A stretch of DNA of 41,442 nucleotides from Dethiobacter sp. (GTDB taxonomy: Bacteria > Bacillota > Dethiobacteria > Dethiobacterales > Dethiobacteraceae): positions 1-41,442 of the forward strand of contig DYEY01000072.1 of NCBI GenBank assembly GCA_020725465.1, in the 5' to 3' direction. Shown in pieces: positions 1 through 5,742 of the stretch. Under the pieces are notes generated by a model. It worked only from the letters and a program-made list of their open reading frames with translations. It had not been told where the DNA came from and did no database searches. Made by a program: the position numbers and the translations under genes. Each line of letters opens with the position of its first letter. Within the stretch, counting starts at the first letter, position 1.

Positions 1-81
1 ATAACATCTTCCTGCTCTCTTTATTTACGCATTATGTCAAATTCGGTTAAATTACGAATTGAAGATCAATAAACCTCTTCG

Positions 82-110
82 TTGACAAAGGACTTTGTTT
101 GTCCTATACT
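82..110 (+). promoter_or_regulatory. Consensus sigma-A promoter of the aro leader
   Basis: TTGACA at 82-87, a 17-base spacer and TATACT at 105-110. Transcription would start near 117, about 24 bases before the leader peptide and 220 bases before the chorismate mutase-shikimate kinase gene, leaving room for the attenuator described below. Confidence 0.8.
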
Positions 111-140
111 GATTTTAATATCAATAAACGGGTGATTGTT

Positions 141-218
141 GTGGCGGACCGTAAGACAGCTTCTTTTGGCTATTATTTCGGCTGCTGGTGCTATTTTGGC
201 ACCTTTGCTTCAGAGTGA
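141..218 (+). CDS. Aromatic-rich leader peptide (25 aa), attenuation control of aro gene
   Basis: A 25-codon frame starts with GTG at 141 and stops with TGA at 216-218. GGTGA at 131-135, five bases before the start, can serve as ribosome site. The peptide reads MADRKTASFGYYFGCWCYF then GTFASE: eight of 25 residues are aromatic (Phe, Tyr, Tyr, Phe, Trp, Tyr, Phe, Phe), packed in codons 9-22. It lies between a consensus promoter and an intrinsic terminator that precedes a shikimate-pathway gene, which is the classical layout of a ribosome-mediated attenuator. A GGTGC/GCACC hairpin can form inside the coding part at about 187-203. The role as a sensor of charged aromatic tRNAs is inferred; no homologue was searched. 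A GTG at 132 is a possible but less well placed start. Confidence 0.7.
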   Translation: MADRKTASFGYYFGCWCYFGTFASE

Positions 219-239
219 AAATAATAGCTTTTCAGATCC

Positions 240-297
240 CTTTCTAAGATAACAGGTTCAGGCTCCAAAGAGGCTCTTAGAAAGCGCCTCTTTTTTT
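240..297 (+). terminator. Intrinsic terminator with overlapping antiterminator (aro attenuator)
   Basis: The terminator stem is AGAGGC (269-274) with GCCTCT (286-291), followed by T residues 291-297. An alternative perfect 10-bp stem pairs CTTTCTAAGA (240-249) with TCTTAGAAAG (275-284). The second arm is the loop of the terminator hairpin, so the two structures exclude each other. This is what an attenuator governed by ribosome position on the upstream leader peptide needs. The segment that would sequester 240-249 when the ribosome does not stall is not obvious by eye. Confidence 0.75.
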
Positions 298-337
298 ATA
301 CAGTTTATACAGGTAGAACGGTAGGAGGTACAAAAAA

Positions 338-1228: not shown

Positions 1229-1762
1229 ATGAAGCATCTTGGGCAAATACCAGCCGGGTTTGCAGGCACTGCCATCGAAAAACTGGTCCGTTATCATAAT
1301 TTCCTTGAACCTGCTGCCGCGTACCTACATCCGGAGTTGCTGGTCTGTATGTGTATGGATTACCGTATCAATCTGGCCCTGCCGCCGGGATTTGCCTATG
1401 TGCTGCGCACTGCCGGCTGCAACATAAGCCGTCATCACTTCCAGGTGGCTTATGCTGTGGCTGTGGGTGGGGTAAAAGCCATCGCGTTGATCGGCCATAC
1501 TGACTGCGGCATGGTTACTCTTCCTGCCAAGAGGGAAAAATTTATACAGGGTCTCACCGGCAGCTTGGGCTGGAAACAGGAAGAAGCGGAACAATTCTTC
1601 GACAGGTACGCGCCGGAAAACACCATCTGCAATGAAACGGAGCAACTTTTTAAAGAAGCAAAGCTGTTTCGCGCCTGGTTTCCTTCTTTGCCGGTGGCAG
1701 TATTGATTTATCAAGTAGAAGATGGGATGCTCGTTTTTCCCGGCAGTAACGATGATTTTTAA
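1229..1762 (+). CDS. Beta-carbonic-anhydrase-like zinc protein
   Basis: A 177-residue protein with the zinc-binding pattern of beta-class carbonic anhydrases: CMDYR (Cys42, Asp44, Arg46) and GHTDC (His90, Cys93). The Asp-Arg dyad expected for catalysis is present. Members of this family hydrate CO2 to bicarbonate, but several short relatives have no proven activity, so the exact reaction is open. The length is slightly shorter than usual. GGAGGG lies about eight bases before the ATG. It follows the aro gene by 69 bases in the same direction and is closed by the terminator at 1777, so it may be cotranscribed with it; no functional link is evident. Confidence 0.8.
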   Translation: MKHLGQIPAGFAGTAIEKLVRYHNFLEPAAAYLHPELLVCMCMDYRINLALPPGFAYVLRTAGCNISRHHFQVAYAVAVGGVKAIALIGHTDCGMVTLPAKREKFIQGLTGSLGWKQEEAEQFFDRYAPENTICNETEQLFKEAKLFRAWFPSLPVAVLIYQVEDGMLVFPGSNDDF

Positions 1763-1776
1763 CAATAGTGGCTGTG

Positions 1777-1797
1777 CCCCCTAAAAGGGGGTTTTTT
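1777..1797 (+). terminator. Intrinsic terminator after the carbonic anhydrase gene
   Basis: Five C residues (1777-1781) pair with five G residues (1787-1791) across a TAAAA loop, followed by six T residues. It separates the upstream unit from the cadmium-resistance operon. Confidence 0.85.
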
Positions 1798-1798
1798 G

Positions 1799-1851
1799 TT
1801 GACACAATTGGGCTGTGACAATATAATATAAACAATTAAGCATATGTTTAA
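1799..1851 (+). promoter_or_regulatory. cadCA promoter and CadC-type operator
   Basis: A near-perfect promoter: TTGACA at 1799-1804, 17-base spacer, TATAAT at 1822-1827. Just downstream lies the near-palindrome TTAAGCATATGTTTAA at 1836-1851, which spans the expected transcription start and ends 12 bases before the cadC start. AT-rich inverted repeats in this position are the usual operators of ArsR/SmtB metal sensors, so autorepression by the adjacent cadC product is likely. The binding itself is inferred. Confidence 0.8.
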
Positions 1852-1863
1852 ATGAGGTGGCCA

Positions 1864-2229
1864 ATGAGAAACGATGATGTCTGCCAGGTATATTCGGTTA
1901 ACAGCGAGGCAGTAGCCGCCGCCAGGAAAAATATCGGGCAGGAGGAGGTTCTGGAGGTGCTGTCCAGGACATACCAGGCGCTGGGGGAGACCAACCGCCT
2001 GAAGATACTTTTGTCCCTGCGGGCATATGAACTTTGTGTCTGTGACATCTGCGAAGTTTTGGGGATGACCGCTCCTGCTGTTTCGCACCACCTGCGCCGC
2101 CTGCGCGACCTTGGGCTTGTCAGGTCGCGACGTGCCGGGAAACTGGTGTACTATTCCCTTGACGACCAACATATTTCCGAACTGCTTGATATTGGTCTCG
2201 TGCATGTGAGGCACAGGTTTAATTTGTGA
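1864..2229 (+). CDS. cadC: ArsR/SmtB-family metal-sensing repressor, CadC type
   Basis: A 121-residue winged-helix repressor. The ELCVCD motif in helix alpha-3 plus an N-terminal Cys (DDVCQVYSVN) are the thiolate ligands typical of CadC sensors for Cd, Pb, Bi or Zn. The recognition helix region reads TAPAVSHHLRRLRDLGLV. The start at 1864 is preferred over an in-frame ATG at 1852 because GAGGTGG (1854-1860) is placed correctly for 1864. Metal binding should release the protein from the palindrome at 1836-1851. The cadA pump gene follows after 31 bases, forming a two-gene detoxification operon. The metal preference cannot be settled from the sequence. Confidence 0.9.
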   Translation: MRNDDVCQVYSVNSEAVAAARKNIGQEEVLEVLSRTYQALGETNRLKILLSLRAYELCVCDICEVLGMTAPAVSHHLRRLRDLGLVRSRRAGKLVYYSLDDQHISELLDIGLVHVRHRFNL

Positions 2230-2260
2230 GAGGCAGTCAGGAGTAAACATAGGAGGGGGG

Positions 2261-4402
2261 ATGGGTCAAATGGCGACAGATGCTGAGGCATTGCCGGGGG
2301 ATTTGCAGCGGAAAGCTTTCAGGGTGTCGGGTCTTGACTGCGCCGATTGCGCGGGTAAATTCGAAGAGACGCTAAGAAGGCTGGATAATGTGGAAGAGGC
2401 CTCACTGGGTTTTGCTTCCGGGAAACTGTATATCAGCTACCGGGGCAGCCTGGAGGAAGTGCACCGGCTGGCAGCGTCACATGGTTTCCGGTTGATGGAA
2501 GAGGGGAGCAAAGTGAGGTTGCCCTTTGACCCGGTTAAAACAAGAGCGGTTTTTGCCCTGTTATCGGCAATTTTCTTGGCCCTGGCTGTTGTTTTTGTCA
2601 GGATCAGTGACGCTGTGTCCGGTATCCTGTTGCTGGCGGCCACTGCCGCCGGAGGGTTTAACACTTTCAGGAAGGGGATTTTATCCCTGGCTTTGCGCCG
2701 GTTTGACATGAATGTGCTGATGACTCTGGCGGTGGCCGGGGCTTTGTTCATCGGCGAATGGTGGGAGGCGGCGGTGGTTGCTTTTCTCTTTGCTGCCGGC
2801 AATGCCCTGGAAACTTACACCGCGGAAAAAAACAGGCGCTCCATTCATGCCCTGATGGATACCATCCCCGGGGAAGCCAACCTGCTGGAGGGAGGGATTC
2901 CCCGTACTGTCCCCCTGTCCTCTGTCAGGGCCGGAGACCTGATTCTGGTCAGGCCGGGTGAGAGGGTCCCCCTGGACGGCTTGGTCCAGGCCGGATCGTC
3001 GTATGTAAACGAGTCTGCCGTCACCGGGGAACCGCTGCCGGCTGCCAAGAAAGAGGGAGATAGGGTGTTTGCCGGCACTTTGAACGGTGACGGTTCTCTT
3101 ACCGTTCAGGTTACCTCGCTGGCTTCCGACAGCACCCTGGCCAGGATTGTGCGCCTGGTGGAGGAAGCCCAGGCGCGCCGGGCGCCTTTTCAACGCTTTG
3201 TAGACCGTTTTGCCCGGGTCTACACCCCAACCGTTATCCTGCTGGCCATGTTAATTTTGGCAGCAGGTTTTGCCATTTCGGCCGGTGACTGGCGTCCCTG
3301 GCTCTACCGCAGCCTGGCTTTGCTCATAGTGGCGTGTCCCTGCGCGCTGGTGGTTTCCACCCCGGTGGCGGTGGCAGCCGCCCTGGCCAATGCCGCCCGT
3401 CACGGTATACTGGTTAAGGGAGGGGCTTACCTGGAGGCAGCGGGCCGGGTAAAAGCCATAGTTTTTGACAAGACCGGCACACTTACTGGCGGCAGCCCAG
3501 GCATAAGCGGTATCGTGACTTTTAACGGCTTGGGCAGGGAAGACGCCCTCCGTATTGCCGCCAGTCTGGCCGCCCACTCGGGTCACCCGCTGGCACGGGC
3601 GGTATCGCTGTACGCCCAAACCGAGGGTATGACGCTGTTGCCTGCCTTGGACTTTGTTTCTTACCCCGGCAAAGGGATTTCCGGCTGGGTTGGCGGCGAT
3701 ACTTACCTGCTGGGCAGTCCGGCCTACCTCGCAGAAGAAGGCGTGAACCTGGATCTGGCGGAGCTAAGCCTGGCGAATGGCAACAGCACGCTTTGCCTTG
3801 CTTCCGGCGGCCGGTTGCTGGCGGTCATCACCCTGACTGACGCCCTGCGTCCCGGTATACGCCGGCTTCTCAATGCTTTGCGGGAGCTTGGTATCGGGCA
3901 CCTGGCCATGCTGAGCGGTGACAGGGAGACAGCGGCACTGGAAACTGCCAGGGGACTTGGCCTGGATTATGTAAAAGGAGGACTGTTGCCCGGAGACAAA
4001 GAGGAGGAGGTGGCCCGCATCCGCAGGCAGTTTGGCCGGACTGCCATGGTGGGTGACGGTATTAACGACGCTCCCGCCCTGGCTTTGGCAGACCTTGGTG
4101 TGGCCCTGGGTGCCGCCGGCAGCGCCACCGCGCTGGAGACCGCCGATGTGGCCCTGATGGGGGATGAACTGTGGGGGTTGCCCTACCTGATCTCCCTTTC
4201 CCGGCGTACGGTGGGTGTTATCCGCCAAAACATTATTCTTTCCCTTGTTATCAAAGGACTGGCCATCCTCCTGGTCTTCCCGGGTTGGCTGACCCTGTGG
4301 CTTGCCATCCTGGCCGATATGGGCGCATCGCTGCTGGTTACCGTCAACGGGATGAGGCTGCTCTATGCAGGGGATAAAAAGGACTTTAATTTTTTAAAGT
4401 AA
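2261..4402 (+). CDS. cadA: P1B-type heavy-metal-exporting ATPase, CadA type
   Basis: A 713-residue membrane pump that uses ATP to export soft divalent metals such as Cd, Zn or Pb. In order: an N-terminal HMA domain with GLDCADC, transmembrane segments from about residue 90, the actuator loop with VTGEPL, the CPC metal-transport motif at Cys359-Pro-Cys361, the phosphorylated Asp403 in DKTGTLT, an SGHPLARA nucleotide-binding motif and GDGINDAPALA before the last helices. CPC with one HMA domain fits the CadA/ZntA branch rather than copper pumps. An AGGAGGGGGG ribosome site directly precedes the ATG. It is cotranscribed with cadC. No defect is visible. Confidence 0.93.
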   Translation: MGQMATDAEALPGDLQRKAFRVSGLDCADCAGKFEETLRRLDNVEEASLGFASGKLYISYRGSLEEVHRLAASHGFRLMEEGSKVRLPFDPVKTRAVFALLSAIFLALAVVFVRISDAVSGILLLAATAAGGFNTFRKGILSLALRRFDMNVLMTLAVAGALFIGEWWEAAVVAFLFAAGNALETYTAEKNRRSIHALMDTIPGEANLLEGGIPRTVPLSSVRAGDLILVRPGERVPLDGLVQAGSSYVNESAVTGEPLPAAKKEGDRVFAGTLNGDGSLTVQVTSLASDSTLARIVRLVEEAQARRAPFQRFVDRFARVYTPTVILLAMLILAAGFAISAGDWRPWLYRSLALLIVACPCALVVSTPVAVAAALANAARHGILVKGGAYLEAAGRVKAIVFDKTGTLTGGSPGISGIVTFNGLGREDALRIAASLAAHSGHPLARAVSLYAQTEGMTLLPALDFVSYPGKGISGWVGGDTYLLGSPAYLAEEGVNLDLAELSLANGNSTLCLASGGRLLAVITLTDALRPGIRRLLNALRELGIGHLAMLSGDRETAALETARGLGLDYVKGGLLPGDKEEEVARIRRQFGRTAMVGDGINDAPALALADLGVALGAAGSATALETADVALMGDELWGLPYLISLSRRTVGVIRQNIILSLVIKGLAILLVFPGWLTLWLAILADMGASLLVTVNGMRLLYAGDKKDFNFLK

Positions 4403-4476
4403 AAGGACTTTTTATTATTAAAGCGAATATTTAGCCTGAATATGCAAATGAAAAGGTGCCTGTTGGGGGTGTACTA

Positions 4477-5742
4477 TTGAACAAAAAAAAGAAATTCCTT
4501 TTGGTCTGTATATTATTCACTTTGGCTTTGCTTGTTGCCTGGGCAGAGAGTGCAGGAGAAGTAACCGTGGGTTGGGACCTAATCCGGCAGCTAAACAGGC
4601 TGTTTGCGGTTTTTGGTTTGTGGTTTTTCTTTTTGCAGTTTGTGCTCAGTTGGCGGATCAAGTTTATTGAAGAAGGAATTGGCCTTGACAGGATGATCCG
4701 GTTCCACCGTATTTTGGGGCGCGCTGCATTTGGCCTGCTGCTCCTGCACCCGGTATTTTTCTACCTGTACTCCGGAGAGGCCAGTTTTGATTCTGTATTC
4801 AGGATTATAGGAATCATTGTGCTTATTGGCCTTGCTTTGACTGCTTCAGTGGCGGCGCTGCACAAAAAACTGAATCTTGCTTACGAAATATGGCTTAATA
4901 TTCACAAAGCCAACTATCTGCTGTTTCCGCTGGTGTTTATCCACGTTTTTCATAACGCTGCCGTCGGTTCCCCGCTCTTTTATGCCTGGGTTCTGCTGGG
5001 TTTAGCCTTTACAGGGATAATGGTACATAAGCTGCTGCGAGAGAAGGATATCCGTCGCAATCCGTACCAGGTGGTTGAGGTCCGGCAGGAAGCCGGAGAC
5101 ATCTGGACCCTTTGCTTTAAAGGGCGCTCACTGGTCTATCGGCCCGGGCAGTTTATGTACCTGCGGCTGGTACGGGACGGGAAGGTTTCGTCCTCACACC
5201 CTTTCACCATTTCCTCCAGCCCTACAGGAGAGCTGCTGGCGGTTACACCAAAGGAACAGGGTGACTTCACAGCCACCGTTAAATATACCAAACCGGGAGA
5301 TCAGGCCTTGGTGGATGCTCCCTATGGGGTTTTCAGCTTTTTAAATTACAACTGTGAAAAAATCGTGTTTATAGCCGGAGGCATTGGAATTACGCCTTTT
5401 ATCAGCATGCTCCGTTACATGTATGACAAAAAATCCGAGATACCGGTGACATTGCTGTGGGGCAACAAAGATGCCAGTTCTCTCTGCTTTATGGAAGAAC
5501 TGGATCTGATGAGTCGTGAGATGCCAAAGCTGCAGGTGGTCCTGGTGATGTCCCGGCAGGAAGGGTGGCACGGCGAAAAAGGCCGCATAGACCGCGGCCT
5601 TCTGGCAAAATACGTACCGGAACCTGCTGGCTGTGACTTTTTTGTCTGTGGGCCACCGGCCATGAGTAAAGCTGTCATCCTGGCTCTCAGAGGGCTGGGG
5701 GTGCCGGCTGGCCGGGTTCACCACGAACTGTTTGAGTTGTAA
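4477..5742 (+). CDS. Ferric-reductase-like membrane flavocytochrome oxidoreductase
   Basis: About 421 residues. The N-terminal half has roughly six membrane segments of the ferric-reductase/NADPH-oxidase domain, with His residues in the membrane helices (RFHRILG, LLLHPVF, NIHKANYLLFPLVFIHVFHN) that could hold b-type haems. The C-terminal half is a ferredoxin-reductase-type domain: RPGQFMYLR and SSHPFTISSSP for FAD, IAGGIGITPF for the nucleotide and FVCGPPAMSKAV near the end. It probably moves electrons from NAD(P)H through FAD and haem across the membrane; the acceptor is unknown. TTG at 4477 is chosen because GGGGGTG precedes it at normal spacing; GTG at 4456 is the alternative and has no good ribosome site. 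It ends 15 bases from the convergent gene at 5758. Confidence 0.82.
   Translation: MNKKKKFLLVCILFTLALLVAWAESAGEVTVGWDLIRQLNRLFAVFGLWFFFLQFVLSWRIKFIEEGIGLDRMIRFHRILGRAAFGLLLLHPVFFYLYSGEASFDSVFRIIGIIVLIGLALTASVAALHKKLNLAYEIWLNIHKANYLLFPLVFIHVFHNAAVGSPLFYAWVLLGLAFTGIMVHKLLREKDIRRNPYQVVEVRQEAGDIWTLCFKGRSLVYRPGQFMYLRLVRDGKVSSSHPFTISSSPTGELLAVTPKEQGDFTATVKYTKPGDQALVDAPYGVFSFLNYNCEKIVFIAGGIGITPFISMLRYMYDKKSEIPVTLLWGNKDASSLCFMEELDLMSREMPKLQVVLVMSRQEGWHGEKGRIDRGLLAKYVPEPAGCDFFVCGPPAMSKAVILALRGLGVPAGRVHHELFEL

Follow-up and report, generated by a model that had tools for sequence, protein, structure and literature searches.

A putative aromatic leader-peptide attenuator upstream of the aroQ-aroK fusion gene of Dethiobacter sp., a divergent member of a family shared with clostridial relatives

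The aroQ-aroK fusion gene of Dethiobacter sp. appears to be controlled by ribosome-type transcription attenuation, in which clustered aromatic codons upstream of the gene would decide between an intrinsic terminator and an alternative stem. From sequence comparison and folding models, we put the probability of this reading at roughly 0.88. The element lies near the start of the 41,442-nt contig analysed here (the window) and, to judge from its sequence, is one divergent copy of an aromatic leader-peptide attenuator conserved in about a hundred genomes. This family is absent from Rfam. An attenuator had already been proposed in an initial annotation of the same DNA; the conservation of leader, codons, arm and terminator supports that reading, and from it we infer the regulatory role.

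The individual elements named in the initial annotation were recovered by our analysis (Table 1): a consensus promoter, matching 11 of 12 bases in a consensus scan; a 25-codon frame with eight aromatic codons, confirmed by translation and unique in the window; a terminator before the gene, then given as 269-297 and placed by scan and folding at about 267-297; and a perfect 10-bp alternative stem using the terminator loop, all ten pairs being Watson-Crick. The start of a second frame (ORF 2), the pairing of 169-178 with 219-228 and the repeat at 1-64 had been overlooked. ORF 1 encodes VADRKTASFGYYFGCWCYFGTFASE, followed by a stop, and 8 of its 25 codons are aromatic (F, Y, Y, F, W, Y, F and F at 165, 171, 174, 177, 186, 192, 195 and 204); if translated as predicted, it carries the clustered end-product codons of a leader-peptide attenuator. 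Across both strands of the 41-kb window, ORF 1 is the only short ORF with at least eight aromatic residues in 16. A comparably dense short ORF was absent from 20 dinucleotide shuffles of the whole window, while shuffling of the leader only attained this density in 4 of 2000 trials. The terminator, AAAGAGGC-loop-GCCTCTTT followed by a T run, lies between ORF and gene and has a folding energy of -12.3 kcal/mol in isolation (z -2.3). Whole-leader folding is no better than that of shuffles (z -0.63), as expected for a switch that contains coding sequence. The 10-bp stem is on its own moderate evidence for an attenuator: shuffles of the upstream stretch gave a run of this length in 19 of 5000 cases, so conservation is needed as the deciding evidence.

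Table 1. Features of the aroQ-aroK leader region (window coordinates).
Feature	Position	Strand	Basis
End of multicopy element, probably insertion-sequence	1..64		Repeat comparison and direct reading
Sigma-A type promoter, TTGACA-17-TATACT	82..110	+	Consensus scan, 11/12 consensus bases
Shine-Dalgarno-like GGTGA of leader peptide	131..135	+	Direct reading
Leader ORF 1, 25 codons, GTG start	141..218	+	Translation; alignment with other leaders; shuffles
Accessory stem, 5' arm (Tyr-Tyr-Phe codons)	169..178	+	Direct complementarity with 219-228; fold of 117-300
P1 hairpin GGTGC-TATTTT-GGCACC spanning Trp codon	187..203	+	Same place as CUGGgGCU..AGCgCYGG in relatives
Candidate leader ORF 2, MKIIAFQIPF*, ending inside antiterminator arm	215..247	+	Direct reading; G011 counterpart
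Accessory stem, 3' arm, directly after ORF 1 stop	219..228	+	Complementarity with 169-178; fold of 117-300
Antiterminator 5' arm CTTTCTAAGA	240..249	+	CTTTCTAAG conserved in G011 and many relatives; swap test
Intrinsic terminator, stem 267-274/286-293 and T run	267..297	+	Scan and folding; kept in G011
Antiterminator 3' arm TCTTAGAAAG, the terminator loop region	275..284	+	Perfect 10-bp complement of 240-249
Shine-Dalgarno AGGAGG of structural gene	323..328	+	Direct reading
aroQ-aroK fusion, chorismate mutase type II and shikimate kinase, 273 aa	338..1159	+	Pfam CM_2 7.6e-20, SKI 3e-47

Among genomes that carry the fused gene, the nearest is the metagenome-assembled genome Dethiobacter sp. CROMO_A_105 (G011), whose gene product is 60% identical to that of the window. 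Upstream of this gene lie MLLSVKLSSLPSFYYFSTWSYYFSTGYSL, the arm CTTTCTAAGG and the terminator GAGGCACTTAGAAAGTGCCTC; direct alignment with the window reveals that the promoter (TTGACA at the matching position), the Shine-Dalgarno-like site, the aromatic block, the arm, the terminator and a stop/start overlap are all kept. GGTGATT is likewise found ahead of the leader starts in G011 and in one further leader (L116). Scanning the regions upstream of clostridial fusions added ten leaders with the pattern ..YYFNFYWGFYFYSAGYF.., and a terminator follows every one of them. A covariance model (R1) built from 12 leaders, window and G011 among its rows, matched 97 of the 297 Anaerovirgula-order genomes, several of them with two or three copies, 2 of 98 in the window's class (the window genome, G000, and G011) and 11 of 398 across the phylum. 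The window copy is a weak match (E 2.3e-4), the sole one in its genome and not an independent one, as the window is among the 12 rows. The alignment of upstream regions that had been suggested as a check thus finds leader frame, aromatic codons, arm and terminator preserved in G011 and about a hundred further leaders, almost all of which have a terminator and a gene of the aromatic pathway behind them.

From the two group searches (Anaerovirgula order and the window's class) we parsed 94 matches, with a median leader length of 52 residues and Trp in 87. DAHP synthase lies downstream of 71 leaders, and another 10 precede genes that belong to the protein cluster holding aroQ-aroK and chorismate mutase-prephenate dehydratase (pheA). 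Sodium:solute symporters follow four, a dehydroquinase one and shikimate dehydrogenase (aroE) one; the remainder comprises three proteins with a weak PF00180 match, one LarA-like protein, one masked case and two that the script left unparsed, of which L126 precedes aroQ-aroK and L116 a shikimate kinase frame. Ten further phylum-level matches sit upstream of DAHP synthase-like starts. Because R1 is blind to the downstream gene, this gene set is strong independent evidence for a role in aromatic metabolism. A gene of the same pathway follows in the window (CM_2 and SKI domains) as in the relatives (DAHP synthase and others); the initially described placement before a chorismate mutase-shikimate kinase gene is correct here but is no specificity of the element, since most relatives precede DAHP synthase.

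The position of four symporters (Pfam SSF; L177, L195, L197 and L203) behind an aromatic leader suggests that they carry aromatic amino acids or precursors. In L155, L159 and L170 the leader stands before proteins of about 220-250 aa, whose weak PF00180 match covers one short stretch (tested in L155); their assignment to aromatic metabolism is a guess based on the leader. In L232 an aromatic leader precedes a protein of the LarA-like lactate racemase family.

Across the family, conservation within the leader is highest in the aromatic codon block, and the non-coding part varies with its complementarity kept. Some 42-68 nt past the Trp codon, most leaders carry a stretch that pairs with the loop or the 5' half of the terminator, and the letters of arm and terminator vary by lineage while remaining complementary (CTTTCTAAGA/TCTTAGAAAG, TCTAATGAG/CTCATTAGA, AAATCCCTC/GAGGGATTT, CGGGAAACT/AGTTTCCCG). 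In a swap test on 90 leaders, which included G011 and left out the window (whose spacer falls short of the fixed distance), pairing of arms with their own terminators totalled 1588 against 1249.5 (sd 29.2) with swapped ones, and none of 10,000 permutations reached the observed total; the test ignores kinship among leaders, although in one respect it is conservative, owing to swaps between close relatives. From lineage to lineage, arm and terminator change in concert. The antiterminator, mutually exclusive with the terminator, is thus backed by the 10-bp stem in the window and by the evolutionary signal in these 90 leaders. Per-leader shuffles of the arm over the whole spacer were weak (40/94 in the top 5%) owing to the long search region, and the fixed-distance swap test was used instead. 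No convincing arm was found in L152 and L161 (type C). As for the P1 hairpin, 91.7% of cells are paired, compared with 24-48% when the pairing is slid. Its position fits, but its pairs never vary on both sides and compensatory changes are absent from the relatives, and we dropped it as a proven conserved structure.

We propose that the leader would sense charged tRNA for all three aromatic amino acids (Phe, Tyr and Trp) at once. Under starvation, the leading ribosome would stall in the block 165-206 and leave the arm 240-249 free; on transcription of 275-284 the two would pair, blocking the terminator and allowing read-through into aroQ-aroK. In fed cells, a ribosome would cover the arm while the terminator is made, and transcription would stop near 297. 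Most relatives would achieve this with one long leader ORF that crosses the arm or extends right to it. Folding with ribosomes in place (footprint reaching some 14 nt past the A site; 246 was used for the ORF 2 stop, one base off, with no effect) is consistent with the scheme. With a ribosome on any aromatic codon or at the first stop, the predicted antiterminator probability was 0.95-1.00 when 286-288 was reached; placing the ribosome at the end of ORF 2 gave 0 for the antiterminator and 0.99-1.00 for the terminator. Inclusion of the upstream RNA made the picture less clean. For G011, the antiterminator reached 0.75-0.89 before terminator closure. At equilibrium, the fully transcribed terminator wins in almost every ribosome state; since it is the more stable structure once complete, the decision must be kinetic, taken during transcription.

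The leader-peptide scheme as initially annotated is supported for the window, but calls for an amendment: a ribosome that completes ORF 1 halts at 216-218, short of the arm at 240, so that without a second ORF there would be no clear "off" state. Of the 94 parsed leaders, 88 enclose the arm within the ORF and 4 have it at most 12 nt past the stop; the sole two exceptions are the window, with a stop 22 nt short of the arm, and G011, 20 nt short. Both possess a second frame that overlaps the stop of the first. In the window, GTG 215-217 shares GTGA with the TGA of ORF 1 and opens the codons GTG AAA ATA ATA GCT TTT CAG ATC CCT TTC TAA (215-247); in G011, the frame ATG AAC ATA ATA GGA ATT CAT ATC TTT CTA AGG TAA, encoding MNIIGIHIFLR*, opens at an ATGA overlap. 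Either frame ends in the arm or immediately behind it, and solely via candidate ORF 2 would a ribosome in the window mask the arm. Two ORFs here stand in for the single long ORF of other leaders, and we infer from this layout a split single leader in which ORF 2 does the job of the tail elsewhere. After the end of ORF 1, the ribosome would restart at GTG 215, translate ORF 2 to 245-247 and thereby come to lie on the arm. Such a two-stage relay, with ORF 1 sensing Phe, Tyr and Trp and a reinitiated ORF 2 carrying the ribosome to the arm, is to us a tentative proposal with not quite an even chance of being right. ORF 2 has no clear Shine-Dalgarno sequence, a stop/start overlap by chance is not improbable, as any TGA preceded by A, G or T yields one, and the split form with ORF 2 was seen in just two related genomes, the window's and G011.

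Early stops occur elsewhere in the family. The clostridial leader L157 stops early with a TTGA overlap, but its stop adjoins the arm. In family f83, before DAHP synthase, the leaders L235 and L238 stop directly behind the aromatic block, L235 with an ATGA overlap; f83 is possibly another split-leader lineage.

A variant compatible with attenuation is that ORF 1 suffices, with structure formed after ribosome release and the timing of transcription favouring the terminator, and that ORF 2 is a chance frame. The stem 169-178/219-228 (partly kept in G011 as CTATTAT/ATAATAG) and a TGAA..TTCA hairpin spanning the stop (216-235) exist in both genomes and could serve this purpose, and without a ribosome, with the upstream RNA present, the antiterminator attained just 0.13 at 288. 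A ribosome at the ORF 1 stop, however, still gave 0.75-1.00, and 92 of the 94 leaders have an ORF that extends over the arm or right up to it, which would put the ribosome on or beside the arm; we regard the variant as possible, at somewhat under even odds. The split relative to other leaders could also be a sign of decay, an in-frame stop having broken an ancestral single-ORF attenuator, so that the terminator would merely damp expression and the mobile element, whose end sits some 18 bp ahead of the -35 box, would add noise. This is improbable given that G011, for all the divergence of its gene product, keeps the same split, promoter, arm and terminator.

Readings without a sensing ribosome fare worse. 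A terminator and an alternative stem by themselves leave the driver unspecified, and a riboswitch or a protein-controlled terminator (ligand-binding or TRAP-like) with an incidental ORF could operate them; yet there was no Rfam match at any meaningful score, and the codon block is better conserved than the non-coding part, which varies and stays complementary. We therefore consider such control very unlikely. A T-box, the usual solution in Firmicutes and present before a DAHP synthase gene of the same genome, is scarcely credible before aroQ-aroK: RF00230 had no match in the window at the gathering threshold, nor in 60-345 at E up to 5. Several observations weigh against the attenuator reading itself: a third genome, G033, has the fused gene with the leader absent, the window copy matches the model weakly despite being one of its rows, the terminator predominates at equilibrium, and the P1 hairpin lacks compensatory changes.

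The fusion is carried by 3 of 98 genomes of the window's class, most others having ordinary shikimate kinases, and 76 of 297 genomes of the Anaerovirgula multivorans order match it at E <= 1e-45, some via the kinase part only. In the phylum sample it was found in the window's class only, owing to its concentration in the Anaerovirgula order, and no match was found in viral contigs. In protein searches of genome contigs, a single protein gave no match and a 3-protein alignment recovered the named relatives. The fusions of the window, G011 and G033 form one clade (100/100), and horizontal transfer of the gene into Dethiobacteria is possible; the clade's position among the clostridial fusions is not settled by the tree. 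On the 3' side of aroQ-aroK (1229-5742) lie a carbonic anhydrase-like protein, an ArsR-type regulator preceded by a perfect consensus promoter (1799-1827), a heavy-metal P-type ATPase and a ferric reductase-like oxidoreductase, genes outside the aromatic unit.

The 2.9-Mb genome is assembled in 78 contigs, and the window begins at the end of one of them. The first 64 bp of the window recur in this genome as 64-66 identical bp at 4 other contig ends and as 38 bp at a fifth. The repeat terminates in GAATTGAAG, its five other copies lie at or near contig ends in L002, L003, L004, L005 and L006, and it is probably the end of a mobile element or insertion sequence. Next to the copy in L002, a partial ORF (1-240, minus strand) had no Pfam match. 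One copy lies directly upstream of the aroQ-aroK leader and another directly upstream of the T-box riboswitch before DAHP synthase (L004 1184-1435 and 3-1040, both minus strand). The same genome thus has a T-box at DAHP synthase and a leader at aroQ-aroK, both sensor types in one pathway.

No Rfam family, including Phe_leader and Trp_leader, matched the element in the window, nor did a leader family at low score in 60-345, where snoRNA and BsrG matches were dismissed as chance. A scan of ten relatives returned solely T-boxes and tRNAs, outside the element. A search of open papers found no description of the family, which may have been noted elsewhere. Its absence from Rfam leaves its genes without annotated control, although it occurs in about a third of the sampled Anaerovirgula-order genomes and here and there across the phylum, in most cases before DAHP synthase, the pathway entry. 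The relay, if true, would mean that coupled short ORFs act in amino acid attenuation and can derive from the splitting of one ancestral leader; the split version would offer a simple test case for translational reinitiation as a working attenuator part.

Mechanistically, the window attenuator belongs to leader-peptide attenuation, an already known kind, of which the split two-ORF form would be a variant. In Firmicutes, control of aromatic genes is usually attributed to T-boxes and TRAP, as the initial annotation also stated; leader-peptide attenuation is nevertheless not foreign to the phylum, with reported histidine, leucine and Phe examples and with the present family common in one clostridial order. 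The enterobacterial pheA and trp attenuators (Phe_leader, Trp_leader) combine an amino-acid-rich ORF, a terminator and a competing antiterminator. The window has the same short ORF rich in the regulated residue, terminator, antiterminator and aromatic gene, but mixes all three aromatics, pairs a separate arm with the terminator loop and has an apparently split leader. Within Firmicutes, histidine leader peptides provide attenuation in place of T-boxes (PMC2965389, PMC9413887), the same type with histidine codons before his genes. The mutant-supported leucine-rich attenuator peptide of Staphylococcus ilv-leu (PMC5794164) likewise joins leader and terminator, with branched-chain residues and a different antiterminator geometry. 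ErmBL and ErmBL2 also place two leader peptides in one attenuator, which is reported to be translational and induced by erythromycin and does not sense amino acids (PMC8274638). Closest, compared by description only, is the uORFC-13-1 motif of Acholeplasma, a low-GC Gram-positive relative, in which a Phe uORF with at least one Phe codon and a terminator likewise precede the DAHP synthase gene aroF (24 representatives including environmental sequences; PMC8632094).
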